Assembly (NCBI GenBank): GCA_037447655.1
Contig: JBBHKE010002273.1
Coordinates: 20,584-84,583 of the forward strand
Direction of reading: 5' to 3'
DNA: 64,000 nt
DNA from: Zygnema cylindricum
Lineage: Eukaryota > Streptophyta > Zygnematophyceae > Zygnematales > Zygnemataceae
This document shows positions 14,979 through 35,828 of this stretch, one piece after another (position 1 is the stretch's first letter; every line of letters starts with the position of its first letter). The notes under the pieces were generated by a model. It had not been told where the DNA came from, made no database searches, and worked only from the letters and a program-made list of their open reading frames with translations. Made by a program: the position numbers and the translations under genes.

Positions 14979-16075
14979 TGTCAAGCTCGTGTGCATTCTC
15001 GGCACACACATTTATTCAAGATTTCCGGACCTCTTTTTACCCCGTACGGTCACCAATGTACGGATACTTGAGTGTAATAGACCACACCAGATTCCTTTAT
15101 TTTTCACACAGAGCTCAACGCAATTTGGTTCACGTTTAACGGAGGCCTGACAACCAAGTTATTATGCTTCTAAGATTGCAGTTTCACCACCTAGAAGCAG
15201 TTTCCCGCACCCCTAGCGGAGGGTATATTGTGGACTTGCATGTTACCTTAGGAATTGCAATCTAGATAATGTTGTTGGACGTCAGTAAGAATTTAGTTTA
15301 GGTCCAACCGGCTTTCGATTCATTAATTACCCTAGGTTAAAGTCTGGTGTTTCAGCGCCACTTAAGTACTTTGATAGATTAGTGGATCCAATTTGGACTC
15401 CCTGCCACGGATCTAGCCGGAGTCCGAAGTATTACTTTTTGCCCTGAGTGAGGTATTACCTAATTTGTCCTATGTCCGTTCAATTGGTATTGCTCTCCGC
15501 TCATAAGCTCTTAGCATTGCGTTGACCTTTTTGGATTTGAACTAGACAAACTCTGTTGTATTAGGCACCTGGGGACGATGGAGACAGGTTGCTGTTTTTA
15601 GTACCGTCTCTTGAGAGAAACCTTAGAAAATTTCGAAGCAAACTTTCTTTTGGAGAACTTTTGTCTTGCTTTGTGTGACTCTGTTTCCATCTCCGGTTGT
15701 GAATTGTCTCTTGTGGAAATCGTAGTTCGGTTGGTTAATTGGCATTTCCCTTCCCTTAGGCGGTTTAAGTCTTTTTGCTGTTGAACCTGGGAAGAGTCTT
15801 GTCGGTCCTGTGTCGCGGAAGCCGAGGTGTGAGGGAGGAACTTACCGGTTTCTGGTGCCTTTGGGGGAGAGAGTTCGTTTCTTCTTTGTGTCATTGTTTA
15901 TCACCGGGGTATGTTGAGCTTGCTTCACCATTATTCATCATTCTATCTGTATTTCTCTTTTCTAGGGCAAGGTGAAATTGTTAAATCTGAAACAACATAT
16001 TTTTTTGTATAATTTTTTCTGCGTGGAAGTCCCTTTGTGCACTTGTTGGTGGTTTCTTTGGCTCCTGCGACAATC
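14979..16075 (+). repeat. G 5' LTR (LTR1)
   Basis: Starts TGTCAAGCTCG, matching TGTCAAGCTC at 34656. The two copies share their sequence (CGCACCCCTAGCG, TCTAGATAATG, GTCTGGTGTTTCAGCGCC) up to about TTGGCTCCTGC. The exact 3' end is uncertain within about 20 bp, and the primer-binding site was not identified with confidence. Confidence 0.75.
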
Positions 16076-16259
16076 ACACCGGGGTTGGCTAGTTTTACCT
16101 CTAGGATAGAAGAGAGGTTACCGGGTAGCCATATGCCGACTTTTGGCAGATTAGCACAGTATTGAAAACAACAACTTGTCTGCTCGCATTAGAGGGGATA
16201 GTAGCTCCATCTTTGGTACCTTCTCCTTCTATACAAGAGTCAGACTTTATTCTCGGTTA

Positions 16260-17368
16260 TGTTATGTCTCCCTCTTCCCTCACCCAATGAGAGGAGGAGA
16301 AGCCCAAGATAGGGGTACTTCTAATTTTGGATCCGAAAAACAGGGTAGACAGGTGAGAGTTCCACAGGAGGAAGAGCCCCTAAGGCCCGAGGAATATGCT
16401 CCGACGTCCTCCCTCTTTGATTCTCCACTCAAAGAACGCGCCGGGGCCCCCACTCCCCCACCTCTTCCTAACGTGACCCCTGAGCAATTTCCTTCTCTGG
16501 CCAAGGCTGCCAGGGCCGAAGCTGAGGAGAGGAAGAGAACATCCCTTACCTCTCGGAGAAAAGGGTTAGCTTATAAAGAACCCGCCCCTGGTCCCCTTCT
16601 GGATGTTGGATTTCATACACGGTCAAAGGTACCCAGGGTCGAAATCCCCATATATCCTGAGATTTTGGCAGACCCTCGTTGGCTGAGGAGGAAGGAAATT
16701 TTTGCTCTTCATAACCTACATGAGTTGAAAGTGAAAAAAAAATTGGTGCAGCGGGTGGCCCGAACAGACAAGGCCAGGGTGGTTATGCCAATATGAGGGG
16801 TCGTGGAGATCCTAAGTAGTTCCTTGGAAAGTAGTTCCTCACAATCCGTTCAGAACCAGTCTCGGAATATTCCTACTTCTCGCCCCCAGACCACCTATTC
16901 CCAAGACACTGCTATCAGCAGGCAAACCAGGTGGGTACTACTTACCGGACCCGTGCTGCAGAAGGAACCAACAGAAAAGAGTCCCAAGGGTTCCTAGATT
17001 CCCAGAAGTGGAAGAAATTTGACCACAAGGACAGCAAGGGGAGGTTTGCCCCAAGACCCAAAGAGGAAACGTCTCCTCTCCGGGTAACAACATCTACTAG
17101 GGGGTTTCCTCTCTCACCAGCTCGGCCTTCAGAAGGATTGTGGCAGACAAGACCCACCGATCCAAAGTATCTGGTATGGGGATAAGTGATTTGGATGGGG
17201 TAGTTAATTAGAGCCAGGAGTTAGTGAATCTTTTGAAATCTCAAAGAGGGGCTATGGCCGGGACCGGACCCGTCACCTTATATTGGGAGGCTTTAGAAGA
17301 GGAAAAAAAGAAATTATGGGAACATGAACTAAGTCTGATCCGAGAGGCTCGGCGTAGGTCAGGACCTC
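16260..17368 (+). pseudogene. G gag, N-terminal part (broken)
   Basis: A proline- and charge-rich polypeptide is readable for about 170 residues from the MRGGEAQDRG segment near 16288 to a stop at 16794. It continues in other frames (SSSLESSSSQS, QTTYSQDTA) up to the copia insertion at 17369. It includes PPPLPNVTPEQFPSLAK and a basic stretch TSRRKG. No family-level match beyond gypsy Gag position is claimed. The frame resumes after E1 at 21323. Confidence 0.5.
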
Positions 17369-18221
17369 TGTTGAAAAGAATTAATTAATATTCACTTCTT
17401 AATTTAGGATCTAGAGTGGAGAGAGAGAGAGAGAGTCACTATGGTTGCCGCCATAGTCAGAAAGAAACAGGCAGCTAAGCAAACAAATTGATAGATTACC
17501 AAATTGTAGCCCAAATCAAAATTTGAACCTTGATCAACGAAAAACTTTATACACCTATGCCTTAACCATTAAGGCACTAACGAGATACACGTTTGTGGTT
17601 CGGTAATTAATTAAATGTCACGCAAACGTCACTTTCACTTAAACAGACCAAAATTGACAAAACGACATCTATAATCAAACCACGCTCGCGGCCGCGAATC
17701 TAACCGTGTAAAATACATAATCGGACGGACAACGTCGCCCCCGCCAAACCCGAATGAATATTTGGCGGCTTTTGGACATAGTGGCGCGCAATGCCACGTG
17801 GCGCCACATAATTTTACGCTTGAAAAGATGAAAGAGGAACGATGGCTCCCAAGCGGACAAGTGTCAACTAGAAGGCCATGTTGTACAGTGGCCGTACAAG
17901 AAGTAGAATCAGCCATTTCATAGATTCTTTTTGCTGCGGACTCAAGGGAGTCTATGCTACACACGGGTGTAGTCGGTCAGAGTTTTTCCTTTCCATGATG
18001 GTTTCATTTTTAAGGGAAAGTCAAAGTGGGGAATGTTGTCTAAAACATATGTTCAAGCTTTGCATTCTGTGATGAAACTGAGCACACAAAAAGTCTTCTT
18101 TCACAGATGTGAAACTGTATATGAGTTTTGATTATCAAGGTGTGAGTCATTTGGGTTTGTATGAACTTGGAGTCGACACTATCTAGATAAGCTTCTTTAG
18201 GTGTGCGATTTCTGTGGGAAA

Positions 18222-19260
18222 ATGGAACTCATAGAAGTTTAGGTTATGGGCCCATCATCTAAGGTGTCTATGTTTAATGGAACAGACTTCACTTCTGGGA
18301 AGTTATGATGGAGGGATTGCTTTTCGAAATGCACTTATGGGGAATTGTTTCGGGATTAGAGAGGTGTCCGCCATCGGGCTCCCGTAGAACTCACTATGGA
18401 AATTCAACTGGGGCTTCATAGAAAACCAAACGGATTTTAGATGCAACGGAAGGTGAAAGGGAATTTATTGCAATTGAAGAGGGAAAAAGGGAGAAGGGTA
18501 AAAAAACACCTGTGGTGAGGGGAAATAGGCTCTCGCCTACAGTTCCACTTGTAGGGGTTATAGCTAATCCAACAACTTAAAAACATGACATTAAAATTTG
18601 GGAGTACAAAAACACTATAGCTAAACATCTCATGCTTAGAAACGTGTCTAAGTCTATAGCTATTACTCTTATAAACCTAACCAAGTCTTCAAAAATCCGG
18701 GAAACACTAATTCAGATTTATAACAGTATGACTATTTAGAGGTAGCAGTTAGTAAAACAGGAAATAGAGGCCTATGTTTATAAAGGCGGTAGCATGGTAA
18801 AGTTTTGCAATGATATTGCTGCGTTATATGTTGAGCTTGCTAGTGCAGGATATATAGAATCCGAGGTGAGAAAGATTAACACACTAATCATGAAACTACC
18901 AGATGAGTACGAAAACATCATTAACTGTATACAGGAAATGGACTAGTCCTCATGGACTTGGAACATTACCATGGGGATGATTCTTGTGAAGGAAATCACT
19001 TTGGAGCTTCGTAGGGGAAGTGACTTGGTGATACACTGACAGCTGGTGGTGACTAGCGCAAGCGTGATGAGAGGAACGATGGTGACTAGTGGAAGTGTGA
19101 TGAGAGGAAGAAGCGTATCGGAACTTCGGTGGAAAAAGAGGAAGAGGAAAAGAAAGGGGAGCTTTGAAAGGGGGGGTTTGCTTCTTTTGTAGGGAACTTG
19201 GTCACTATATGGCGGAATGTCTTTGTTTGGAAGAAATTAGAAGTAGGAATGTGAAATGAG
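18222..19260 (+). pseudogene. E1 gag (broken)
   Basis: The frame opens with ATG at 18222 inside the LTR end and passes through the primer-binding site (VMGPSSKVSMFNG), but the codon before it is TAG. Homology to Gag of B, C and E4 continues in pieces (KHLMLRNVSKSIAITL, VYKGGSMVKFCNDIAALY). A zinc knuckle CFFCRELGHYMAEC of C-x2-C-x4-H-x4-C form lies at 19179-19220. Several stops and frameshifts are present. Confidence 0.7.
18242..18253 (+). other. E1 primer-binding site
   Basis: GGTTATGGGCCC directly follows the LTR. It is complementary, with one mismatch, to the anticodon-stem region of plant initiator tRNA-Met (GGGCUCAUAACC) rather than to a tRNA 3' end, as in Drosophila copia. Confidence 0.7.
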
Positions 19261-20200
19261 GTGGAAGAAGGGGAAGAGGAGAAACACGATGAAGATATTT
19301 CAAATCTTCTCCACATCAGTAGTACGGGGAAGAGAGAAGAGCACACGAAAATTCCACGAAAGCAACAGTGTGCTTTTGGAGGTATAACGGAGGTAAAAAG
19401 AAAAGAGGTATTTCAGGGAGTTAAACACCATGAGGATGTCAAAGAGTATAGAGTAAATGACTTAGAAATGAGAAATTCAGATTTAGAATCAAAATTGGAA
19501 GAAGGGAAAAATCAGAATATTGTGGATATCCTAATAGATATTTCGGAGACAGAAAACAGGTCGAAAAAAGAGACTTCAACAGATTTCGAGGAAAGAGGAA
19601 AAGTAAATCTAGTAGGAGCTTCAAAGGATAGGGGAGAAGAGGAATATTTAATCAACGGTTTAGGGGAGGAGAAATATCTTTTGGGAATCAAAATAGAAAG
19701 TGACAGTGGAAAGAATTACACGGGAGAGAGTGAGGGAGGTTGAAAAATGGGTAATTATCATCTAAAAATATATGAGTACGAAAGATGTAGATTTTATGAG
19801 GAACTTAGTGGGAATTCGTGATTTAAAGATCAATTTAGGGGGTAATGGATTTGACATCACTAATGAGAGTGATGCCATTTATGAAGGTGTGATTGTAAAA
19901 GGGTTAGCATCTGGGTATGTGTTGTAGGTTGGAGATGGGACTGGCTGTTTTAAATGCAAGTGGGAATTTGGATTTTGCTCGAATTAAAAATGAATGAGGT
20001 GGATAAAATCATTGCTCCAAAAGCCAAAATTTATGAAAAATGAAATGCAAAATAAAATGTGTGATGCAATTATTATTTCAATTTATCTAATACACTGTTT
20101 CAAATACAGGGGTATTCACTTAAAGTTTGACGAGGGGAAAAGAAAAAGGAAAAAGAAAAAAAAATATATAATTGTGTTTTGTTATTAAGTGTGAGTTAAA
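19261..20200 (+). pseudogene. E1 fused tail: acidic linker and RNase H remnant
   Basis: After the EEHTKIPRKQQCAFGG motif comes a strongly acidic/basic linker (DLEMRNSDLESKLEEGK). It then jumps to sequence corresponding to the end of RT (GEEKYLLGIKIESD) and a relic of the RNase H region (NESDAIYEGVIVKGL). The protease active site, integrase and polymerase are missing. The same arrangement is seen in E2 and E4. Confidence 0.6.
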
Positions 20201-20278
20201 AGAAAAGTAGACTAGAAAATATGGGGAGTGTTAAAATGTGTGGACTTAAACTAAAAGTTGAATAAGAATTAAGGGGAG

Positions 20279-21322
20279 TGTTGAAAAGAAGTAATTAATA
20301 TTCACTTCTTAATTTAGAATCTAGAGTGAAGAGAGAGAGGGAGAGAGTCACCATGGCTGCCGCCATAGTTAGAAAGAAATAGGCAGCCCGGTAGACGGAT
20401 TGATAGATTACCAAAATGTAGCCCTAATCAAGATTTGAACCTGGGTCAACGAAGAACTTTATAGACCTATACCTTAACCATTAAGGCACTAACGAGATAC
20501 ACGTTTGTGGTTCGTTAATTAATTAAAGTGTCACGCAAACGTCACTTTCACTTAATCAGACCAAAATTAACGGAACGACAGCTATAGTCATACGACGCTC
20601 GCGGGCGCGAATCTAACCGTGTAAAATACATTATCGGACGGACAACGTCGCCCTTGCCAAACCCGAATGAATCTTTGGCGGATTTCGGATATAGTGGCGC
20701 GTTGTGCCACGTGGCGCCACATTATTGAAGGCCTAAAAAGATGCGAGGAGGAACGATGGCTCATAAGCTGACAAGTGTCAACCAGAAGGCCATGTTGTAC
20801 AATGGCCGTACAAGAAGTACAATCAGCCACTGTACCTTTTTGTACTATACACTCTTTTGATTGGTCTACGGTTGAGTAGTAGGTAGGTGTGAGTAGGAGT
20901 TAAGGGTTTAGCGTGATTGAGGTGCCTCTCTCCAGGTGACCTTTCGTATTTATAGGCCATCTTTGGCCAGCCATAACTAACCGCTTAGAGGAGAAAATTT
21001 AGAGATTCTTTTTGCTGCGGACTCCGCGGAGTCCATGCAACACAAGGGTGTAGTCGGTTAGAGTTTTTGCTTGTCATGGTGGTGGTATTTCTAAAGGAAA
21101 GTCAAAGTGGGGAATGTTGTCCAAAACACATGTTCAAGCTTTCCATTCTATGATGAAACTGAGCTCACAGAAAGTCTTCTTTCACAGATGTGAAGATGTA
21201 TACGAGTTCTGATTGTCAAGGTGTTAGTCATTTGGGTTTGTATCAACTAGGAGTCAACACTATCTTGATAAGTTTCTTTAGGTCTGCGATTTATGTGGGG
21301 AAATGGAACCCATAGAATATAA
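20279..21322 (+). repeat. E1 3' LTR
   Basis: Starts TGTTGAAAAGAAG and ends ...CATAGAATATAA. In order it holds the antisense tRNA-like module (20421-20496), a GTAC cluster (about 20795-20850), TATTTATAG (about 20948) as probable TATA box, and a perfect GGACTCC-GC-GGAGTCC hairpin at 21019-21034. It is the complete copy to compare with the deleted 5' LTR. Confidence 0.8.
20421..20496 (-). other. tRNA-like module in copia LTR (antisense)
   Basis: On the minus strand: AGTGCCTTAATGGTTAAGG (A-box and D-arm-like, with CCTT/AAGG stem) and, about 45 bp on, GGTTCAAATCT (B box, close to the GGTTCRANTCC consensus). Spacing is tRNA-like. Equivalent modules, always antisense to the element, occur in every copia LTR in the window. 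Confidence 0.6.
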
Positions 21323-24300
21323 ACCTCTTCTCTGCGGCCTGGTGGCCACTCCTCCCAGAACATCGTCACCTAGTGGAGAAGAGACGCTGTGAGCATCTCC
21401 TACCCCTATGTCACAGCCTGAATATCCCTCATCGCAAGATCGACGAAGGACTCATATTCAGCGGGAAAGGGGGGGCATTACTGGATCTAATGGGGAGGGT
21501 TTGGGTGTAGATCATTCTTCTTATCAGGCTGTAGCTCCTCGAAACTTTCCCACATTTGTCTTGGTGGAGGGATCCGCCACTTTGGAAGCTGTGGTAGAGT
21601 TATAACCGGACCAGAGGTTACATTTCTCGTTGGGCGTGTTAGTCCACCATCCTCTCCTCCCATACCATCTTCCGATCCTCATTCTTGTATCAACCCACCT
21701 CTTTACTCTCCGCTCCTAGATACCAGTGTCTATCCCCGGGAAATTCTCAAAACTATTGCCGGGTTGGGAGTTGGATTCCAAGCTCTTTCCGCTGTAACTG
21801 AGACTTCAATCCCTGCCTATTCTTCTCCTCATCAGCATTCCCCTTCCACCATTTCCGGAACTCCACCTCCTTCTCGGACCCGACGGCAGGGTCGGAGACA
21901 AACCCCATACCCCAAGCAAGGACAAACGCCTTCTCCTTCAACGTCAACCTCTTGAGGTTCCCTGCATAACCTACCTCTTCTCCAAATTCCTTCCGTGGAA
22001 CCAGGCGGGAGAACTCGCAATTCCGTTAGACATTTGGTATCCGAAGCTATATCAAGCTTCGACCTTCTATCTCATTCAACAACAATCCAACCTTCTTCAG
22101 TGGTATGGGAGACTACCGTTGTTAATCTCGCACCTTCTGTTGGAGAAGGAAGAGGCACTCGTTTTGAAGAAGAGGACCTAGAATTCATTTCCCTTGCTCA
22201 TTTCGTAAGCTCCACTAGGCGGTCATCCCCCCATTTCACCAATCTTGCAGAGGAGGAGAAGATAACCGGGGACGTGAAGATCTTTATAGGGAACAGCTCG
22301 GAGATCGCTTTCTCGATTTTGAATTGTTGTGGAAATCATTCACACAATCAATGATCAATTAATTCAGGGGAGGGGCAATTTCGGATGACTTTGAAACTAC
22401 CTTTTTCCCAATGATGGTCAACTATCTCTCTTCGGGAGCTCTACCACACTATAAGGAGCGAGAACCCCTGTTGATGGTTCCTAGCATCAAGATTTCAGAC
22501 CTGGCTCTTCATGCGGCAGTCTTGCAAGCAGAAACCAACTTGGCTGCAGTAGCGGCCGCACTTGTCATGGCCACCTTCATAGATGACATGAAGTTGCAGT
22601 CATAGGGACAAGAATACGTCAACCAACTGCAAGCAATTCAAGCTGCCTAGGCAGCCACTCGAATGGTCGCCTACCCTACACCATCTACAACTCTTCTGAA
22701 CGCCTGGAGACTTGTGTACAATGAAAGGAACGAGTCCGCCATTAAGGAATTCACAAAATTCCGATGTTTGAAAAATGAGACACCGCAAACCCTTTTCAAG
22801 TGACTCTCTGATTTCTGCCAAAAGACAAAACTGTCAACCATTGACCTTCGGGCTATGGCAACCAAATATTTCATCGCTGTCCAAAATTCGTTCTGGCCGA
22901 CAAGACAAATTGCTTTGGATAATAGGATTGCAGGTCAGGCGATTCATGACATAAATCCCTCGCCGAAGCAAATCTCTCAAGTGGCTAGGAAACTGTACGA
23001 TTATTTTGTCAACAGCGAGGCACGAGAAAAGGCTGTCACTGGCAAAGCCTAGGCCAACTTTGCAAGGTTCACGGAAGAGACATCCTTGAGCCAGGAAGTA
23101 CAGGCGGAACTGCAATCTTCGCGAAAGCTTTAAGGGAAGCAAGAGGCGGAAATAAAGGCCGAACAAGCAATGGGGGCGGATGAGAAAGTGTTTCTCTATA
23201 ATTGCCTAAATTGCCAACAAGCAGATCACGAATGGAAACAGTGTCCAAGGAAACTAAAACGTGAATTTGTAATCAAGAAAGCTGAGTTGAAAAGGAACGC
23301 GTGGAAAGGACCCGGAAACAACAAGATCGCAGAGAACAAGGGGGCGAAGGAGACATAACACCCGTTGATAAAGACACCTACCGACCCACCCGTTAGTTAG
23401 AAAAGGCCAAAATGTCTCAATCTCAGTTGAGACTAATCAAACTCTTGAAGTTCAATGATGCTCAAATCTCCAATGAGTTAAGGAGCAGATTCACCACCGA
23501 GGGTTCCAAGTGTGAGGCTTGTGGTTTCATGGGACACAAGACGGGTCAATGTTTTTCGAAAGAATGGGGTCCCAAAAGAAATGATGCAAAATGCTTTGTT
23601 TACCGAGCGAGGAGAAACTGTTGTAAATCCTCTCCCCCTCCAACTCCTTTACCTCGGGGGCGTGAAAGAATGGACGGACCGAATGCGCGCCATTAGGTTA
23701 AGCAAGACTTACCTCGGTGAATATCATTTAGCAACAAAGCCAGCAATTGGCCGCGATGGATGCCGAATTGGCAGCCTTGCGTTTAGGATCTTCTACCCGG
23801 ACTCGTGCTTTGACGACCGCTCAGAAAATCTAAAACAAGAAACATGATTTGTTACAAAAACTGGCGGAGCTTCAATAAGAAGCCACGGCGGGTGGAGACG
23901 ATAACGATGTTATGGGGTCGGATATGGAACCACCTAAAGCCCACCAAGCCCACACCTTTATGTCAAGAACTTAGAATGTGGGAGTGTGGGAGAATCGCCC
24001 GCAGCTACGCTTTTCAACATCGGAGCAAATGAAGGATAAACAGAAAATGGACCAAGAAAGACCACAACCACAAAGTGACTGGACCTTCATCTTTTACTCC
24101 AAAGGCGGTAATCCTGAACACCGATGTCGGCCTCGGCTTGATGCCAAACGAACCACCTCCACCACCTCAACCGAAACTGCCACCAGGATTTGAACATTTT
24201 TAGGCGGATAAGGAAATATGTTTTAAAAAGATTGCCCTTGACAAACAACCTGATCAGGAATGGTTTGAGAAATATCTAGCTGAAGGGCTGGAAGACATCC

Positions 24301-24420: not shown

Positions 24421-24599
24421 AAGCGGTGATGTTGGTACGACATCTTATGCCATACGCTCTCACCCACGTGAAAACCCTTGCTTCCTCCCATAATTTGCCA
24501 GAAGACATCCTCATTAGGACTTGGGGGAAGAGATTCATATGGGAAAGGGAAAGCTGCTCTAGCAAACTTGTCCGAGAGAGTCTTTAAGTCTTCAAAAGT

Positions 24600-25160
24600 A
24601 AAGACCCTTATTGTGGATAGGGATTACAAGGCTTTATCGGTGGCACTCATCCTCAATCGAGCCGTAAACTTCAAACTCAACGGATACGGAGGATATCAAG
24701 AGGTCGTGGTCGATACAGGGGCTCTCCCTAACTTGTTAACCAATTCGGCTCTGCAACAGATGCCTTAGGAACTTCGGCCGGATATTTGCCCAAGCGACAT
24801 TTACCTGAGCACGGTTAGCACTGGAAGCCAACCAGTCCACGGTATTATAAAAGCCATGACGATCAAGTTCTCCGGTGACGAGGGCCAACAAGTCCAGATT
24901 GAACTCCCTTTCTTCGTGGTGGAAGTTAAACAATTTGAAATTCTGTTGGGGATGGCTACGTGGACACGGCTGAATATAGGGCTGAGCATTTGGAGAGAAT
25001 AGTTTACCATCAAAGATCTTGAAAATCCTAAAGGTACCAAAGTGGTTGTTCCCTTAACATTATAGAATAGGGGAAAGACGGCTATTCCGGTGTCTGAGGC
25101 TACCTTGTATATTCCACAACAACTCCTGCAGATCTCTTTGCCAGCTGAAGAGATATAGCC
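24600..25160 (+). pseudogene. G aspartic protease
   Basis: VVVDTGALPNLL (Asp-Thr-Gly-Ala at 24712-24723) is the catalytic motif of retroviral-type pepsin-fold protease. The downstream stretch LPFFVVEVKQFEILLGMATW (about 24900-24963) matches the flap and C-terminal 'ILLG' part of the gypsy protease family. One TAG at 24765 and one at 25063 interrupt the frame. The domain lies directly before the methyltransferase segment. Confidence 0.75.
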
Positions 25161-25346
25161 GAGGGAATCTAGCAATTCTGTTTTTCCAAGTGGTGTGAAA
25201 AGGAATACCAAGAAAGATTATTACAGGTAGCAAAACCTCGGCAAGCGGTAAACTAAACTTTTGCAGCGATTATACCCGAATGCACAACGTACCTTCGGTA
25301 AGAACCTTCGGATGTCCCCAACGACGGAAATAGATTCAACCGACAA

Positions 25347-26270
25347 GTGGTGTCATTGATGATTCCCAAATTCAGACTTTGGATTTTATTTCTAGTTTAT
25401 GGAATCAGCTCCGATCTGAAAGCCGTTCTACAAGCACGATACCAAATGGTGGACTATGCAGCAGTAGAAATAGCAGTAAAAGCTCGGGTTGTCAGTGAGC
25501 ACCGTTTGCATTATCTCCAGCAGCTCTATCCGCAACAACTACCTATATCCTCTTTTTTGAACTCTCACAATAAGCTCCCCCAAAATGTGGACAGCATTAT
25601 AAAGTCTCATTTAGAAAGTATGGGAAGGGTGGATCTCATAATGGCTGGGTGGCCTTGTTAAGGATACTACTTAGCACGACAAGGAAAAGGACACCAAGAT
25701 AGCCAGAGTAGAACTTTCTTCTAGATGATTCGGTTGATCTCAAAAATACAGCAGAACCTTAAGACGCCAGTGGGGTATGTATTCAAAAATGTTCACCCAA
25801 CAGATGACAAAAAGAAACATGATGCCAGCAGCTGGAATTAAATCACGCAAATTTTGGTGGCACCAATAGTTATCGATGCAGCACAAATGGGATCCAGGGC
25901 ACATAGAGTTAGAGCTTATTGGACGAACCCGGTCCCACTCTCAATTCTCAAGCAACTATTCGCCAATCAGGTTCTAGATCCCCAAATTAATGTCTAACAT
26001 ATTATGGGGAAGGGGCGAATGGCCACGCCCGTGAGCACAACAGACAGGTCCCCGTTCTTTCGTTGTCATACACCAGGAGCCCTAAGACGAGCACTTCCCA
26101 CTGTAGTCTCTTTCCCACACAGCCACGCCTAAAAGAAAAGAGCCCCAAGGATGATATACGATAGCGCATCCAAAGCCTGGACAACGCCAAACATTGAAGA
26201 ACGAGAGCAAGATATGGGATTCCAACGTGCAACAACGGCCGCACCAGGTGATTAAAACCTCCAAAGGTGT
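25347..26270 (+). pseudogene. C5-cytosine DNA methyltransferase domain carried by gypsy element G
   Basis: One reading frame of about 300 codons, broken only by TAA/TAG codons (25659, 25725 and four or so more), shows the ordered motifs of a DNA (cytosine-5) methyltransferase. Motif I-like LFLVYGISSDLKAVLQA (25386 on, eroded from a Gly-rich loop) is followed by VEIAVKARVV (motif II-III region). Next is AGWPC, with the motif IV catalytic Cys at 25656-25658 and Gln of PCQ replaced by TAA, then KNVHP (25785-25799; motif VI ENV with Glu to Lys). QMGSRAHRVRAYW (about 25884-25922; motif VIII) follows, then RALPTVVSFPHSHA (motif IX region) and TPNIEERERDMGF (about 26180-26220; motif IX/X). It sits between protease and RT on the same strand and is therefore part of pol. 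The copy is dead, but its length and motif order are complete. Whether it derives from a DRM/DNMT3, DNMT1 or bacterial-type enzyme cannot be told here. Confidence 0.8.
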
Positions 26271-26639
26271 AGCTTAATAAGACAGAGTATGGATATGAAC
26301 TCCATATCCTGGGTGTTAAAACATTCTCTTGCATTTTCCATTCTTCAGTCCTCGCAGGCTAGGACTAAGTACCTTCAAGCTCCAAAATTGTTGGCGATGC
26401 TTGCCACATTCCAGCTTGAGGGGAGGAGAGAGGCAAGGAGAAATAACTCAAAATTTTCACTTTCTAGCATTACACATGATCCGAGGATTTCCCTCGTATG
26501 GGGGAGCAAAGGATCTGAAAGGGATAGCTTAGCACAAGTTGTCAGCAACATTGTTCTAACAGGAGGGGGGAAAGAAGACCCACCGGTAAAGTTGTAATTT
26601 GACATCTCCCGCTGGGGCAGACTACCGGAAGCAAGGGCA

Positions 26640-27740
26640 GCAATGGAATGAGGGAAGATGGATTGGACCTTAGGGGAGCAATTGGATCCTCAACAGAAGG
26701 CGCTACTCTTCAACTTGTTAGAGGAGAAGAAGCAGGTGTTCTCATGGTCGGATAGCGACGTTGGCATATATAAAGGGGCCCTTTTTTTCGGATAGATTCG
26801 ATAGATGAGACGTCGACTGTTTGGCATAAATAGAACCCACTCTGCTGCAAGGAAAAGGAATTTATGACGACGAAGGTAAAAACCCTGGTTGATGCATTAT
26901 TGGTGCAGGTAAGTACAGGACTCCATGGGTTTGGATCTCCAACAGTTCTCCCACCTAAGAAGGACTCGTCTGGAAAAACTGTAGATTTTCGGATGTGTGG
27001 AGACTATAGGATGCTCAACAGAGCAACTGTATCTGACCGATACCCGATGCAATCTTGTGGAGAGATCTTCCACTCCCTTGCTGCGGCCATAATCTATTCC
27101 ACGCTGGATATGAAAAATGGGTTCTACCAAATCGAGATGGAACCGTAGCACCGGGATAGGAAAGCGTTTTAGGCAGGGTTCAGGTTGTACGAGTGGCTCT
27201 AAATGCCGTTCGGATTAAAAAATGCACCTGCCAAATTCCAACGAGCAATGGAAGGGGCACTTCAGGGAATTAACTATGCACGGTGCTATATTGACGAAAT
27301 GATTATTTTCTCAAAAACCTTTGAGGAACACTTGGAGCACAAATAGATCGTCTTTCGGGCCCTCAAAGCAGCGGGCTTGAAATATCACCTTGGTAAAGGA
27401 ATTTTTAAGGTGCAAAAAATTATTTACGTGGGACATGAAGTTACCCCTGAGAGAGTGGGTCCCCATATGGTCAAAGTGGTTCCCCTTGATGCTTTGCCTC
27501 CTCCGCAAGATGTTTCTGCACTCCGTATGTTCATAGGCCTGGCCAACTACTATCGGAGATTTATTCCCGAGTTTAGCAACCACGCTCAGCCTTTAAACGA
27601 ATTATTCCGGAAGGACCAAGAGTGGAAATGGGCGGAGGAACAACAAATTTTCTTTTTGTTTTTGAAGGATTTCCTTAAGCAGCACCCCGCGGTCCGGATG
27701 CCCAATCACCATAGGCCTTTTCTCTTTTACACTAATTAGA
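26640..27740 (+). pseudogene. G reverse transcriptase
   Basis: LDPQQKALLFNLLEEKKQVFSW (about 26688-26752) is the segment that precedes RT in gypsy Pol. Palm and fingers follow: GSPTVLPPKKDSSGK, DYRMLNRATV, STLDMKNGFYQIEM (27099-27145), MPFGLKNAPAKFQRAM. The catalytic YxDD box reads YIDE (27287-27298), so the second Asp is lost. The thumb continues GLKYHLGKGIF...VGHEVTPE, then MFIGLANYYRRFIPEF. Stops stand at expected Gln positions (for example after MEP and after YEWL). Confidence 0.85.
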
Positions 27741-28250
27741 GCAAGTTTGGATTGGGGGCAGTTTTGGCTCAATTGGATGATGCCGGGGAAGAGTATGTGT
27801 TCGCTTATGCTAGCAAAAGCAATAATAGAGCAGAGTGTCAGATATTTATTCCCGAGTTTAGTAGCCACGCTCAGCCTTTGAACCGGTTATTCCGGAAGGA
27901 CTAAGAGTGGAATTGGGTGGAGGAACAACAATTTTTTTTCCTGTTTTTAAAAGATTCCCATAAGCAGCACCCCGTGCTCCGGATGCCCAATAACCATAGG
28001 CCTTTTCTCCTTTACAGTGATTAGAGCAAGTTTGGATTGGGGGCACTTTTGGCTCAATTAGATGATATCGAGGCAGAGTATGTGGTGGCTTATGCTAGCA
28101 AAAGCAATAATAGAGCAGAGGGGAATTACAATAGTAATCATGGGCAGTTGCTTGCCGCAGTCTAGGCGATTCAACATTTTAGACCATATATGGGGTTCAC
28201 TTCCATCTGATTACGGATCACCATCAGCTCCAGTGGATCATGATGATTAG
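27557..28250 (+). pseudogene. G RNase H with internal tandem duplication
   Basis: The segment from IPEFSNHAQPLN to ASKSNNRAE occurs twice, about 27557-27836 and again 27845-28120. Each copy includes the connection and the RNase H start (SKFGLGAVLAQLDD). The second copy then continues normally (NYNSNHGQLLAAV.AIQHFRPY). The join is at TGTCAG|ATATTTATTCCC (about 27840). Both units carry stops. E2 interrupts the element at 28530. Confidence 0.8.
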
Positions 28251-28529: not shown

Positions 28530-29714
28530 TGTAACTTTGAGACCTCCATAGGTCTTCAAAGTAGGCAACTCTCAAGTAACTTATCTAATTAGTGCCGACT
28601 CTAAGGTTATACAAGCTGTAATGATTGACCCTTTGACAATTAAAACCCCAATACAACTTCAACCTTGTGAAATAAGAATTTTTGTGTGCTCAGTTCCACC
28701 ACAGAATGCAAAGTTAGAATATGAGTTTTGGACACATTCCCCCAATTTGACTTTCCCTTAGAAATGCAGCTACCCAGGCTCGCAAAAACTATGACCAACT
28801 ACACCATTGTGTAGCCTAGACTCCCCTAAATTTGTAGCAAAAAGAATCACTGAATTTGGTCAACCGAGTGAGTTTTAATTAAATGGCAAAGTTTGCCTAT
28901 TTATACAGGTGCTCTCTGGGAGAGAGGCGGCTACCTACCAAAATTATTCTAAGTCCTAGAACCCCTCTCTAAGCCCCCTAGTACTAAGGTACAGACAAAT
29001 CATAAGATTGTACCGTACAAGAAAGTACATATACCGGCGTAGTTTTTGTACGGTCCCTGTACGACATCGCCATAATGTGACATTTGTCATATCCAAAATT
29101 GTCATCTCCTGTTCCAAAGGTCCTACGATCCTCTCGGATCTTGCCACGTGTCATCCGGAGTGGCGGTGCCGAAAAAAGCCAAGTCGCCCACTCCGGAATC
29201 CTGGCTCGCACCACGGCCGATCGATGAAGACCAACATTTAAAATTGGCCGTCTAAATTATTGCGCGATATTTGTTTCATGTTTGAAACAAATGCATGATA
29301 TCTGTTTCGAGATAATCCGTAGTTTGTAAAATACGAAATTTATCTATGTCTTACTATTCCGTTAAATGAATTAGTCTAAATGTTTATGTTTATATATTTA
29401 TCGTACTCTATATGTTTTAGCACTGGTTATAGACTACATGATAAAGTTACTGGCTACTAGATTCTTGACGGACGACAGGTACCAGGATCGAGTCCTAGGT
29501 CCGTCAAGACACTTTTGGTAAACCTACCTAATACTACAACCTGTCTCTCTCTCTGGGCGGCATGGGCAGCTATGGCTCTGGCTTCCTATCCAACCTTTAG
29601 TGATTGCGACAAGTGTGGGGGTTTGGAGAGTGGTGTGAGAGGCAGGCTGCCTTTGCTGACTTTCTATTTTTGATTTTCCTTTATTCAAACCTAGAAAATA
29701 CATACATTTCAACA
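28530..29714 (-). repeat. E2 3' LTR
   Basis: About 1185 bp, TGTTGAAATG...AAAGTTACA in element orientation. It contains the tRNA-like module (about 29425-29510, sense on the + strand; ACCAGGATCGAGTCCTAGG T-arm-like) and a GTAC cluster near 29005-29065. Confidence 0.75.
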
Positions 29715-29889
29715 CTTCTTTTATTTTGTAGTCTACTTCCTTTCAACTCCTACCAAATACATTTTTCTTTTCTTTTTCTTCTTTCTTTTCTTCTTATAAA
29801 TCTTTAAGGAAATAACCTTATTCAAAAAGGTCTGTTAGATGAGCTGAATAAACATTCCATCTTGTTGATTACACATTTTATTTAGCAAC

Positions 29890-31742
29890 CCACTTTTTAT
29901 AAATCCGATTTTATCCACCTCATCTCTTTTCCATCCTCACAAAATCCAATTTTCCTCTTGCAATTCAAACAGCCAGCCCCATCTCCAATCTGCAACACAC
30001 ACTTAGATGCTAACCCTTTTACAGGCACACCTTCATAGATGGCATCACTCCCATTAGTGATGTGAAAACCATTACCCCCCAAACTTATCCTTAAATCAAG
30101 AGTCCCCACTAAATTCCTCATAAAATCTACATCTTCCAAACTCATATTTTTATCCATGATAATTACACCATTTTTTGAACTTTTTTCACTCTCTCCTATG
30201 GAATTCTTTTCACTATCACTTTCTATTTTTATTCCCAAAATATATTTTCCCTCAACCTTTCATTAAATTTTCCACTTCTCCCCTATTCTTTAAAACCCCC
30301 TCTAGATTTACTTCTCCATTTTCCATGGAATCTGTTCAAGTCCCTTTTTCCGACCAGTTTTTTGTTTCCAAAATATCTATAAAATTATACTCATTATTTT
30401 TATTTTTCTCCTTTTGAATTATGGATCCTAGATCTGACTTTCTCATTTCTAATTCATACTTTCTATACTCATTGAAATCCTTATCATGTCTAACTCCCTC
30501 AAAAGCCTCCCTTCCCTTTACTTCTTTTACGCCTTCAAAAACACAGGGTTGCTTTCGTGGAATTTCTGTGTGCCTTTCTCTCTTCCCCCTATTACCGATG
30601 TGAAGAAGCTCCAAAATTTCTTCATCCTCTTTCTCCTCTGAAATTCTGTGGTCTCCATTGACCCACAGAATGAGCAGCCTATGTAAAGCCTCTAGGATAA
30701 TATTTGCCCCTTCTACTTTCCCGCTGAATAAGCGCCACCCAGGCACACAAATATTCTGACCACCCTTTTTTCCAAAGCTCCCTTTTCTTTTCCTTTCCCT
30801 CTTTTTCCACCAAATTTTTGATAAGGTTTACATTTGTCTTTCTTCCTCTCATCACGCTTACGCTCGTCACCGTCATTCCTCTCATCACGCTTCCGCCAGT
30901 CACCACTAGCTGTTATTGCATTCACCTTGTCACTTCCCCTACAAAGCTCCAAAGTGCTTTCCCTCACAAGAATCATCCCCATGGTAATGCTCCAAGTCCA
31001 TGAGGAGCCATCAATTTCCTGCATACGGTTAATGATGTTTTCGTACTCATCTAGGAGTTTCATGATTATAAGTTAAACTTTCTCTCCTCAGATTCAACAT
31101 ATCCCGCACTTGCAAGCTCAAGATATTACGCAGCAATATTATTGCAAAACTCTATCATGCTACCGCCTTTATAAACATAGGCCTCTATTTCTTGTTTTAC
31201 TAAGTGCTGCCTCTCTATAGTCTCAATTTTATAAAGTTGTCTTAGAGTTTCCCACATTTCGGAAGGCTCGGTTAGATTTAAAAGAGTGATAGTTATGGAC
31301 TTAGACACATTTCTAAGTATGAGATGTTTTGCTATATTGTTTTTACACTCCCAAATTCTACTGTTAGTTTTTCAGTTTTATTTATAACCCTTACAAGTGG
31401 GACCGTAGCCGAGAGCCTAGCTCCCGTCACCATAGGTGTTCCTTTTCCTTTCTCCCTTTTTTCCCTTTCTATGGCAATGATTTTCCCTTCACCTTCTGTT
31501 GCATCTGAAATCTGGTTGGTTTTCTTGGAAGCCCAGGATGAATATTCTTAGTGAGTTGAACCAAAGCTCGGTGGCGGACACCTCACTTGTCCCAAATCGA
31601 ATCCCCATAAGTGCTTTACAAAAAGCAACCCCTCCATCGTAAAATCCCAATAAGTGAGGCCTGTTTCATCAAACATAGGCACCTTAGATGGTTGGCCCAT
31701 ACTTGTAACTTTAAGACCTTCACAGGTCCTCAAAGTAGGCAC
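29890..31742 (-). pseudogene. E2 gag and fused tail (broken)
   Basis: Gag begins near 31700 (SMGQPSKVPMFDETGLTYWDF) and is followed by RHLILRNVSKSITITLLN and the helical VYKGGSMIEFCNNIAA. A basic RKRDERKKDKCKP repeat leads to the place where the zinc knuckle should be. The knuckle is replaced by a piece of another family's LTR (30639-30760). The remainder (EIPRKQPCVFEG, then acidic linker, then MGIKIESDSEKN and SLGGNGFHITNGSDAIYEG) repeats the E1/E4 tail, ending near 29897. Confidence 0.65.
30639..30760 (-). repeat. LTR-end fragment of the B family inside E2 gag
   Basis: About 120 bp matching the last part of the B-family LTR (TCAGAATATTTGTGTGCCTGG ... GACCACAGAATTTCA in element orientation). 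It ends exactly at the LTR 3' terminus and is truncated at its other side. It replaces the zinc-knuckle codons of gag. Same orientation as E2. Confidence 0.75.
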
Positions 31743-32875
31743 CTTTCAAGAAACTTATCTAATTAGTGCCAACTCCAAGTTGATAAAACCCAAATGATTG
31801 ACCCTTTGACAATCACAACCCGAATACAACTTCACCCCTGTGAAATAAGACTTTCTGTGTGCTCAGTTCCACCACAGAATGCAAAGTTAGAATATGAGTT
31901 TTGAACACATTCACCAACTTTGACTTTCCCTTAGAATTGCAACCACCCTTGAAAAAAAAACTTTGATCGACTACACCGTTTTGAAGCGTGAACTCCCCCG
32001 AGTCCGTAGCAAAAAAAATCATTGAAGTTGGTCAACCGAGTGAGTTTTAATTGAATGGCAAAGTTTGCCTATTTATACAGGTAATGTCTGGGAGAGAGGC
32101 GGCTACCTACCAAAATTATTCTAAGTCCTAGAACCCCTCTCTAAGCCCCTCACTACTAAGGTATATACGAATCGTAAAACTGTACCGTACAAGAAAGTAT
32201 ATATACCGGCGTACTTTTTGTACGGTCCATGTACGACATCGCCATAATGTGACATTTGTCATATCCAAAATTGTCATCTCCCGTTGCGGAGGTCCCGCAA
32301 TCCACTCAGATCCTACCACGTGTCATCCGGAGTGGCGGTGCCTGAAAAAGCCAAGTCGCCCACTCCGGAAATCTGGCTTGCACCATGGCCGTTCGATGAA
32401 GACTGACATTTAAAATTGGTTGTCTAAATAATTGCGCGGTATTTGTTTCACGTTTGAAACAAATGCGCGATATCCGTTTCGAGATAATCTATAGTCCGTA
32501 CAATACAAACTGTATCTATGTCTTACCATCTTGTTAAATGAATTAGTCTAAATGTTTCTGTTTATATATTTATCGTACTTTATATGTTTTAGCACTGGTC
32601 CTAGACTACAAGATAAAGCGGATTCCTGACGGACGACAGGTACCAAGATTAAGTCCTAGGTCCGTCAAGACACTTTTGGTAAACCTACCTAATACTACAA
32701 CTTGTCTCTCTCTTTGGGCAGCATGGGCAGCCATGCCTTTGGCTTCCTCTCTAACCTTCAATGACTACGACAAGTGTGGGGGTTTGGAGAGTGGTGCGAG
32801 AGGCAGGCTGCCTTTGTTGACTTCCTCTTTTTGATTTTCCTTTATTCAAACTTAGAAAATACATACATTTCAACA
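31704..32875 (-). repeat. E2 5' LTR
   Basis: About 1172 bp; same ends and order of modules as the 3' LTR (tRNA-like module about 32595-32675, GTAC cluster about 32185-32240). The last codons before the primer-binding site have lost the ATG (GTG). Confidence 0.75.
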
Positions 32876-34111
32876 GGATATTTGGAACAGCCGCGATTCC
32901 CTCTAGTCCATCTAACAAGGTTCCCCACTTCGACATTTGTCTGGAGCTCAGTTATCCCTGATACAGACCAGAATGGCGGCGTACGAGTGGGAAAGGGGCA
33001 TTCTAATCCGGAAGTGGGCTGATGGGATAAAGAAAGTAGTCCCTCCCCCAACCGACCGATAAACTCTTATTTCTCGCCTCCATCAGCAATGTGGTCATTT
33101 TGTGTAGAAATAGACTATTCCCTTTTTTACAAGATCGTGCTCGTGGCACGGGTTGAGGACCTAAGTCAATCGGATTGTGAAGACCTGTCTTTCCTATGGC
33201 TGAGTGAGAGCAGCTTTCCACAAAAAAGGGGGAACAGAAGTTCATTCTCTTCCCATCAGGGAATGTTTTATCGGTGGTCTTTGGATCTGTTAGGCCTTTT
33301 CCCCACTAGCACACGGGGGAAGCGCTTTGTATTGGTGATGATATAGCATCTTTCCAAATGGATAGAATTCGTTTTGCTGCCCCGGAAGGAGTCAAAGGCA
33401 ATTGCAGACGGATTCTTCCTAAGAGTGTTGTCCTAATTTGGGGCACCATCAGAGGTATTGACTGATCAAGGCTCCGAATTCCCAGGAGAATTCTCCAACT
33501 TGTTGGAATTGTGTCTGATCGACCACCGATCGACCAACTGAGACCACCCTCAAGCCGATAGTTTGGTAGTAAGGTGCGTACAGTTAGTGAAGCGGTCATT
33601 GCGACAATATGTTGTGGAAAAAGATTTGGGGGAGTGGGACAGACTAATGCCTTTGATTGCCATGGGGTACAGATTTAGTCGCCAAGCTTCCCTCCACTCT
33701 TATAGCCCTTATATCATCTTGTTCGGACGATATCCCATCCTACCCTGCGGTGCCTTGGCCCAAGCGGTGATCCTTTCGGAGATGGATAACAAAAGGGACG
33801 GTCGAGAAACTGATTGTCGACAGGGCAAAGGTATTTCACCGGGAAATGCCTCTCGCCATTGGGAACTTACAAGCAGCCTTACACCGAGATCAACTATGGT
33901 AATCGCAATGCCGGAGAGGGAATTTTGTCCCCCGGCAAGGGTGATTCATGCTCGGGGATTTCGTGTACCGAATGCAACAGAAGAAGGTAACTCTGGATAT
34001 TTATGCAGGATGAGTGATTCTAAAGGTGGTAGAGGTTTCTAATAAGGGTGTCCTGACGCTGGATGGGAAGGATGGTCGCAAAATAAAGGAGAATCAAATG
34101 AATGTGGCCCA
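32876..34111 (+). pseudogene. G integrase (broken)
   Basis: The His-His part of the zinc-binding domain is visible as LISRLHQQCGHF (about 33070-33100). The core follows with WSLDLLGLFPTST (first Asp, about 33274-33312), LTDQGSEFPGEFSNL (second Asp, about 33461-33500) and HPQADSLVVRCVQ (about 33548-33580), where the third acidic residue appears lost. The C-terminal part runs DRLMPLIAMGYRFSRQASL and a GPY-like end (GVLTLDGKDGRKIKENQMNV). Multiple frameshifts and stops. Confidence 0.75.
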
Positions 34112-34112
34112 T

Positions 34113-34339
34113 TGACACCTCCGGGGATTGGAAGACGAGCCGACTTTCCACCTAACCTATTTTGCCAACCCACCTTTTTGTTCCTCCTTCTGCCTTTTGT
34201 CATCCGAGCCAGGTCCTGTCTTGGTCTTCGATCGATGCAACCAGTGTTGGCATCAATCCTGCCTTTCCTCCTCTTACGACTCTCATCCTCAACCCAGTGA
34301 CCCTTGGTTCTGTGGGAACTATGAGTTCGACGGGTAAGC
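34113..34339 (+). pseudogene. PHD-like zinc finger at the end of G pol
   Basis: The open frame after integrase reads FCSSFC...VFDRCNQCWHQSCLSS...DPWFCGNY before a TAG at 34338. This fits the C4HC3 PHD pattern: an N-terminal Cys pair (34179 on), a [C]-D-R-C pair with the first Cys now Phe, Trp-His-x2-Cys, and WFC-x2-[C] with the last Cys now Tyr. PHD fingers commonly read histone H3 tails. In this position chromoviruses carry a chromodomain, so a role in targeting integration is a reasonable inference. Two zinc ligands are mutated in this copy. Confidence 0.6.
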
Positions 34340-34655: not shown

Positions 34656-35828
34656 TGTCAAGCTCATATACATTCTTGACACACTCACATTTATTCAGGA
34701 TTTCCGGACCCGTTTTTACCCTGTACCGTCACCAGTGTACGGATATTGGAGTGTTATACACCAGATCAGATTCCTTTATTTTTCATACGGAGCTCGACGC
34801 AATTTGGTTCACACCTAACAGAGGCCGAACAACCAAGTTATTTTGCTTCTAAGATTGGAGTTTCACCACTTGGAAGCAATTTCCCGCACCCCTAGCGAAG
34901 GGAATATTGTGGACTTGCTTTGGGATGGCAATCTAGATAATGGCAGTTTCCCGCACCCCTAGCGAAGGGTACATTGTGGCTTGCATGTAACATCTGGGAT
35001 TATAATCTAGATAATGCTGTTGGACGTCACTAGGACTTAAGTTTAGGTCCAACTAGCTTTCGGTTCATTAATTACCCTAGGTCAAAGTCTGGTGTTTCAG
35101 CGCCACTTAAGTACTTTGATAGATTAGTGGATCTAATTTGGAATCCTTGCCACGGATCTAGCCGACTCTAAAGTAGAACTATTTGCCCTAAGTGTGGTAC
35201 AACCTAATTTGTCCTATGTCAATTTAATTGCTTTTGCTCTCCGCTCATTGGCTCCTAGCATTGGGTTGACCTTTTTGGATCTGAACATGACAAACCCTGT
35301 TGTATAAGGCAGTAGGGGACGAATGAGACATGTTGTTGTTTTCAGTACTGTCTCCTGAGAGAAACCCTAGAAAATTCCGAAGTAAACTTTCTTTAGGAGA
35401 AATTTTGTCTTACTTTGTGTGACTCTGTTGTCATCTCTGGTTGTGAATTGTCTCTTTTGGAAATCATAGTTCGGTTGGTTAATTCGCATTTTCCTTTCCT
35501 TCGGCGGTTTGAGTCTTTTTGTTGTTGAACCTGGGAGGAGTCTTGACTGTCCTATGTTGCGGAAAGCCGAGGTGTAAGGGAGGATCTTACGGGTTTTCGA
35601 TACCTTTGGGGGAGAGAGTTCTTCTCTTCTTTGTGTGATCATTTATCACTAGGGTATGTTGAGCTCGCTTCACCAGTATTCATCATTCTATCTTTATTTC
35701 TCTTTTTTAGGGCAAGGTGAAATTGTATAATTTGAAACGACATATTCTTTTGTATACTTATTTATGCGTGGAAGTCCCTTTTTGCACTTCTTGAAGGTTC
35801 TTTTGGCTCCTGCAACGCTTTGGGTTGG
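34656..35828 (+). repeat. G LTR2
   Basis: Starts TGTCAAGCTCAT and matches LTR1 throughout. It contains a two-copy tandem duplication (34874-35015) of the CGCACCCCTAGCG segment that is single in LTR1. The border with the following internal region is interrupted by E3 at 35829. Confidence 0.75.
34874..35015 (+). repeat. Tandem duplication in G LTR2
   Basis: Two units of about 70 bp, each from TTTCCCGCACCCCTAGCGAAGGG to ATCTAGATAATG. LTR1 has one unit, so this arose after or during the last insertion. Confidence 0.8.

Follow-up and report, generated by a model that had tools for sequence, protein, structure and literature searches.

A DNMT3-type cytosine methyltransferase is a component of a gypsy retrotransposon family in Zygnema cylindricum

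DNA cytosine methylation is one of the chief means by which plants and their algal relatives fight retrotransposons, and a retrotransposon that carries a cytosine methyltransferase itself raises the question of whether this enzyme is part of the element or a chance passenger. In the window analyzed here (the whole stretch of 64,000 nt, C1715:20584-84583 of the assembly), an initial annotation had placed a cytosine-5 methyltransferase (MT) between the protease and the reverse transcriptase (RT) of one gypsy element, element G.

We observed that positions 25335-26324 (+) of the window encode a DNMT3-type cytosine-5 methyltransferase with six in-frame stops and no net frameshift. The Pfam profile search against the C5-methyltransferase family was significant (PF00145, E 1.4e-5, 25.1 bits compared to a curated cut-off of 22), and the best PDB matches are DNMT3A and DNMT3B (best E 5e-8). 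These matches confirm the claim that methyltransferase motifs lie in one frame at 25347-26270, and the frame is as described; this interval is inside the domain but does not cover it, because motif X (QSMDMNSISWVL) comes 3' of 26270. All motifs named before are present (AGWPC at 25644, FKNVHP at 25782, HRVRAYW at 25902, RALPTVVS at 26088 and TPNIEEREQDMGF at 26184), but the last one has Q in the sequence where R had been given (...RDMGF). The window copy thus has the catalytic Cys (AGWPC), the Asn of the ENV motif (KNV) and the Arg of RxR (HRVR), and its frame continues into the N-terminal linker of the RT (VFSWSD, 26736). A motif I stretch is followed by motifs IV, VI, VIII, IX and X, which is the DNMT3 order. 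Plant DRM enzymes are DNMT3-related as well and are the next PDB match after DNMT3, but they have a rearranged motif order (described in the consulted text of PMC6453930), which is absent here. For a profile built from eight MTs (the window's included) the matches to solved structures were DNMT3A with E 1.5e-16, DRM with E 2e-8 and then bacterial enzymes (HhaI with E 6e-6).

A long single-frame query from the window matched two public proteins, P0001 (CCHC, protease, then MT) and P0002 (MT, integrase, PHD). Using the MT of P0002 as query we obtained 213 proteins at E 1e-3 or better; the best 120 of these 213, P0002 included, were taken and together with P0001 form a set of 121 proteins. Five of the best 120 bear the names of green algae (four Haematococcus lacustris, one Monoraphidium neglectum). 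All 121 proteins match the MT region of the window, 118 of them with a tblastn match inside the domain stretch and all in the same frame (best E 5e-48, 25383-26342), while a control with reversed proteins gave no match on the window at E 1e-4 (tblastn). Of 46 columns conserved to at least 95% in the 121 proteins the window copy retains 29, compared to at most 9 in 10,000 residue shuffles. The similarity of the window MT is far beyond chance.

The catalytic Cys and the Asn of ENx were found in all 121 proteins, whereas before the Cys, where Pro is usual, 84 proteins have Glu, 24 have Pro, 7 have Ser, and Asp and Ala occur in 3 each. Pro in motif IV is paired with ENV in 18 of 24 proteins and Glu with ENT in 60 of 84, although this pairing may reflect kinship because there are only two supported independent pairs on the tree. 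Glu in place of Pro may alter the activity. The domain order is RT-MT-integrase in 101 proteins, MT-integrase without detected RT in 15, RT-MT in four and, in this comparison, MT alone in P0001; in nearly all of the 121 the MT lies between RNase H and integrase. The public polyproteins P0002-P0121 resemble element G in having RT, integrase (49% identity at best), PHD finger and an MT, which is at most 35% identical to that of the window. They differ from it in the place of the MT, which in element G lies between protease and RT, and in mostly showing the WEC form, whereas the window copy has WPC. At least six of the 120 listed proteins (P0004, P0030, P0053, P0054, P0056 and P0092) contain a nucleic-acid-binding G-patch domain (PF01585). 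One gypsy MT polyprotein, P0082, is labelled as a Minisyncoccia bacterial metagenome-assembled genome, and the label is probably due to eukaryotic contamination of the bin. A phage origin of the MT was considered and rejected: the MT of P0033 gave only local matches in 11 phage records, the 10 listed ones with 32-41% identity over at most 33% of the query. No confirmed relative of the MT was found in the viral contigs scanned, and none in the prokaryote contigs scanned.

The element surrounding the MT (Table 1) has the order gag, protease, MT, RT, RNase H, integrase and PHD, spread over several frames because of decay. With RT and RNase H before the integrase and long terminal repeats (LTRs) on both sides it shows the Ty3/gypsy order, and its LTR pair is identical in 949 of 1090 ungapped columns (87%, K2P 0.143). 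Element G is an old, dead copy of a Ty3/gypsy retrotransposon. Both the location of the MT within gypsy pol and the death of this copy had been claimed from the letters alone; the former is borne out by the LTRs, protease, RT, RNase H and integrase around the MT, the latter by the stops in the MT and the broken frames. Inspection by eye revealed neither matching 5-base flanks as a target site duplication nor a clear tRNA complement as a primer binding site. A chromodomain, the chromovirus trait, gave no match in the scanned stretch after the integrase, where a PHD finger is found instead, which the initial annotation had missed; the PDB matches of this finger are weak (best E 0.005). Element G further contains, where RT and RNase H meet, a tandem duplication of 283 bases (27553-27835 / 27838-28120, 88%). 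Elsewhere in the window, an open frame at 9201-9674 (-) matches BUD22 (E 2.4e-12) and is probably a host gene exon, the sole non-transposon gene piece recognised among the few window frames scanned, and the region 37000-63000 holds several copia elements, which occur in both orientations and have long open frames (e.g. 57258-58958), together with many related terminal repeats.

Table 1. Features of element G in the window
Feature	Position	Strand	Remarks
5' LTR	14979..16072	+	begins TG, ends CA; aligned with 3' LTR
Open frame just inside 5' LTR	16155..16796	+	probably gag start, judged from position; no Pfam match
Nested insertion	17369..20829		own terminal repeats 17369-17915 / 20279-20829, 89%
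Gag end, two CCHC zinc knuckles	23203..23552	+	23203-23244 and 23511-23552, different frames
Aspartic protease, DTGA at 24712	24541..25000	+	PF13975 E 0.0036, below cut-off; first few query residues, outside match, deviate from the sequence
UAG-CAA-UUC, in-frame, leaky-stop candidate	25170..25178	+	165 nt before MT; TAGCAATTC in 27/30 loci
Linker, same frame as MT, toward RT N-terminal segment	26325..26790	+	
RT and RNase H	26852..28192	+	PF00078 E 9e-23, PF17919 E 8e-14
Nested insertion	28530..32875		own terminal repeats 28530-29714 / 31704-32875, 87%
Integrase	32877..33745	+	49% identical to best public relatives over second half; 178-aa piece without Pfam match
Integrase C-terminal part and PHD finger	33810..34322	+	PF00628 E 3.6e-6; zinc-binding core 34191-34319
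3' LTR	34656..35816	+	self-comparison

We searched the window's own assembly (352.8 Mb, 2689 contigs) for further MT-bearing copies. With PF00145 the best 123 of 782 candidates were scored as matches, and with the window MT the best 121 of 1770 candidates were scored, which are 54-74% identical to the query (the window itself aside) and include 24 copies without any stop. The union of both searches gives at least 209 distinct MT places, among which a few may belong to methyltransferase genes of the host or show a single copy twice on allelic contigs. For the 29 closest loci fetched besides the window we observed protease, MT and RT in this order on one strand in 26 cases, MT and RT in two and the MT alone in one, with identities to the window of 72-81% for RT, 57-77% for the protease and 60-66% for the MT. 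Near-identical loci may be allelic contigs, and for this reason not all copies are independent. ENV and WPC are kept in most of the fetched copies of this first family, that of the window. In two first-family copies (10-kb stretches) uninterrupted frames of 1520 and 1525 aa comprise MT, RT, integrase and PHD; both copies are interrupted upstream of these frames, above a conserved UAG described below. Among the loci fetched, no first-family copy was found open from gag to PHD, and the stretches fetched for two first-family copies contained no matching LTR pair for dating. The live relatives that the initial annotation had pointed to as the thing to find thus exist in the same genome as far as uninterrupted MT frames are concerned, whereas its view that such elements are rare did not hold, as they are numerous both in this genome and among public proteins.

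Some single loci deserve mention. Identical MT stretches were found on different contigs for L014/L015 (C1920, C1974) and L041/L048 (C1344, C1407), and each pair either arose by very recent copying or represents a single copy seen in both haplotypes. A first-family element at L066 (C961:66800-76700) shows two consecutive integrase-PHD stretches beside an assembly gap; a frame of 5743 aa at this place was discarded as an artefact of the assembly N run. At L007 (C514:125180-128428) a PF00145 match lies in a short frame of 100 aa without a match to either retrotransposon MT query, and this locus may belong to a host methyltransferase gene as one of its exons.

With the RT rather than the MT as the starting point, we scored the best 150 of 3465 candidates in the same genome, and 69 of the 150 have a listed MT upstream at a spacing of 1.28-1.85 kb from start to start. 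When the 12 best RT loci (11 besides the window) were read directly, an MT was present upstream in all of them, including three that are absent from the MT lists. A further 12 RT matches were picked by hand down the list from the 81 without a listed MT, and eight of them have an MT as well (one as a 27-residue tail); in the remaining four lower-ranked matches there is no detectable MT within 1.75 kb upstream and no protease in the stretch read. A junction of protease and RT without an MT was not seen among the RT loci read, which are a small sample. Other copies lacking the segment had been named as a sign of a chance insertion; against such an insertion stand the MT in all of the best RT loci and the protease-MT-RT order shown by 26 of the 29 relatives. 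These gypsy elements carry the MT as a component of the family, and a chance insertion was rejected.

The same arrangement was observed in a second family of this genome, in which protease, MT and RT follow each other in all nine fetched loci. Its copy L041 has an open frame of 2395 aa with two CCHC knuckles, protease, MT, RT, integrase and PHD, and its motif IV has the WEC form. The terminal repeats of L041 are plain, direct and identical over 834 of 834 aligned bases, and therefore the insertion is recent. The MT protein of L048 is the same as that of L041, and L048 may be an allelic contig. A third, more distant type was found at L003 (protease 49%, MT 44% identical).

To evaluate selection, pN/pS was calculated between stop-free first-family copies (16 for MT, 15 for protease, 14 for RT), and pairs with pS of at most 0.03 were dropped. 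The median of seven disjoint pairs each is 0.29 for the MT, 0.40 for the protease and 0.20 for the RT, and over all pairs the values are 0.22, 0.20 and 0.09, respectively. These ratios indicate purifying selection on the MT that is weaker than on the RT and about equal to that on the protease. In MT trees with DNMT3A pieces as the only outgroup, the protease-MT-RT elements (the three types of the window's own genome together with P0001) form one group (94/87) apart from the 18 other public MTs used. In an earlier tree the window copy had joined P0001 on long branches, and P0001 stayed in the group after intact relatives were added. An AU test did not reject (p 0.53) a tree that sets 37 public MTs as one cluster against the window copy, P0001 and DNMT3A. 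Because long branches remain (P0001, DNMT3A), we take the tree as support for the group and not as proof. From the tree and the shared PHD finger the simplest reading would be a single capture of the MT with a later move within pol; alternatively, the MT might have been captured twice from the same source.

Copies of the window's family have gag-protease and MT-RT-integrase-PHD in one frame that is divided by a UAG 162-171 nt before the MT. We found TAGCAATT in 27 of 30 loci (in the window at 25170), always followed by C and in 24 cases in frame with the MT, while two of the remaining three loci show a one-base difference and one is without the stretch; these loci are not independent because they comprise two main subgroups and near-identical pairs. 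The frame above the UAG is open for at least 443 codons in six loci, up to the end of the stretch examined, and the frame below it for about 1520 codons in two other loci. Third codon positions from +14 to +29 downstream of the UAG are 89-96% conserved, with +11 at 52%; before the UAG, nine of the ten third positions from -31 to -4 are conserved to 41-56% and those from -88 to -76 to 85-96%. The rows for this count were chosen by the nine-base motif, so the conservation of the motif itself is circular there, and the pattern around the UAG is suggestive only. The tobacco mosaic virus readthrough context is UAG-CAR-YYA, which UAG-CAA-UUC fits except for the final A, and the soybean element SIRE1 uses stop suppression. 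The conserved UAG-CAA-UUC suggests stop-codon readthrough in the window's family, which would not be general since L041 has no stop between protease and MT.

A DNMT3-type domain in LTR gypsy elements is already known from KnitGypsy-Dnmt3 of Klebsormidium nitens (de Mendoza et al. 2018, PMC5890265). As far as described in the text consulted, this element is like element G in having gypsy LTR-element domains and a Dnmt3-type non-rearranged DNMT inside the pol ORF; it is intronless, occurs in several copies and is reported to be under purifying selection. Its repeats are DIRS-like according to the legend (PMC5890265), whereas element G and L041 have plain terminal direct repeats, a comparison made by description, and in the main text of that paper the terms chlorophyte, green alga and PHD do not occur. 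For the gypsy DNMT3 of K. nitens an assay in yeast detected no methylation, a result that the authors call inconclusive, and SymbioDIRS-Dnmt3 of Symbiodinium methylates CG de novo in yeast (both PMC5890265). The latter is also a Dnmt3-type DNMT in a retrotransposon Pol polyprotein, but differs from element G by its DIRS class, its tyrosine recombinase and its dinoflagellate host. DNA methylases carried by transposons are present in green algae and charophytes and absent from land plants according to the part consulted of Morozov et al. (2019, PMC6338049), and for streptophytes and dinoflagellates a survey of 2025 (PMC12344493), citing the 2018 paper, mentions DNMT3s in DIRS elements and in 'LTR Copia'. 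In the open-access literature as far as searched, we found no published account of a PHD finger, a UAG or a protease-MT-RT placement in such elements. Within the same scope, the protease-MT-RT placement, the PHD finger, the UAG switch and the breadth of the group are new here, and DNMT3 in gypsy pol was already known.

Building on homology, architecture, family-wide presence, purifying selection and the conserved stop, we infer a mechanism for readthrough, activity, substrate and targeting. In working first-family copies gag-protease would end at UAG-CAA-UUC, where a smaller share of the ribosomes probably continue past the UAG and add MT, RT, RNase H, integrase and PHD in the same frame. Readthrough would set the MT at the dose of Pol, and the MT would be packaged in the particle, where it most likely methylates the new cDNA of the element or the DNA into which this is inserted. 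Being joined to the integrase, the PHD finger would direct integration toward nucleosomes with a particular histone H3 state. As a consequence, new copies would arrive already marked and blend into methylated chromatin. We consider it probable that, as this account has it, MT and PHD are regular parts of pol, the UAG is read through, MT at Pol dose marks new copies and the PHD finger guides insertion. A wider version can be put forward only tentatively: a single ancient DNMT3-type capture might have founded a green-lineage-wide gypsy group with a PHD reader and a methylation writer in either of two pol slots. In the window's lineage the UAG would set the dose of the writer so that new copies are methylated during or right after integration as camouflage, and within the group the widespread change from Pro to Glu would define a new enzymatic class.

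Other roles of the MT have to be weighed against this account. That a fragment of a host DNMT3 gene was trapped in a single dead gypsy copy without serving the element would fit the decay of element G and the four lower-ranked RT matches without an MT nearby, but we regard it as extremely improbable in view of the shared order in 26 of 29 relatives, the MT in all 12 best RT loci, the purifying selection and the related MTs in 120 other polyproteins (the best 120 of 213), 101 of which are flanked by RT and integrase. The MT could also be a brake that benefits the host, by which the element methylates and silences its own copies, limits damage and is thereby able to persist. De Mendoza et al. 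discuss this possibility in the text consulted (PMC5890265), and de novo DNMT3 activity marks silent DNA in moss according to the consulted part of PMC6453930; on the other hand, L041 inserted recently despite its MT. Present data do not separate a brake from protection of the cDNA, and we consider the brake rather doubtful.

A methyltransferase acting on RNA, e.g. the packaged genomic RNA or the tRNA primer, would be consistent with the observation that 97 of the 121 related proteins have Glu, Ser, Asp or Ala instead of the motif IV Pro and with the yeast result for the K. nitens enzyme, and RNA methylation is discussed for LINE elements, another class, in the consulted text of de Mendoza et al. 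(PMC5890265). WPC and ENV are nevertheless kept in most first-family copies, and DNMT3A and DNMT3B are the best solved relatives in the profile comparison, so that an RNA substrate seems unlikely. Defence against DNA viruses or rival elements, which Morozov (2019, PMC6338049, in the part consulted) suggests for the methylases of retrotransposons in general, appears very unlikely, as the location of the MT within pol points to a function in the life cycle of the element itself.

Taken together, we favor the reading in which the MT, produced at Pol dose, would mark the element's own new copies. The conserved UAG and the PHD finger, both absent from the published text consulted, provide handles on dose and targeting. 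The MT of these elements is maintained by selection; the window's family has uninterrupted copies and the second family has inserted recently, and it is therefore testable whether they methylate themselves and whether this benefits the element or its host.
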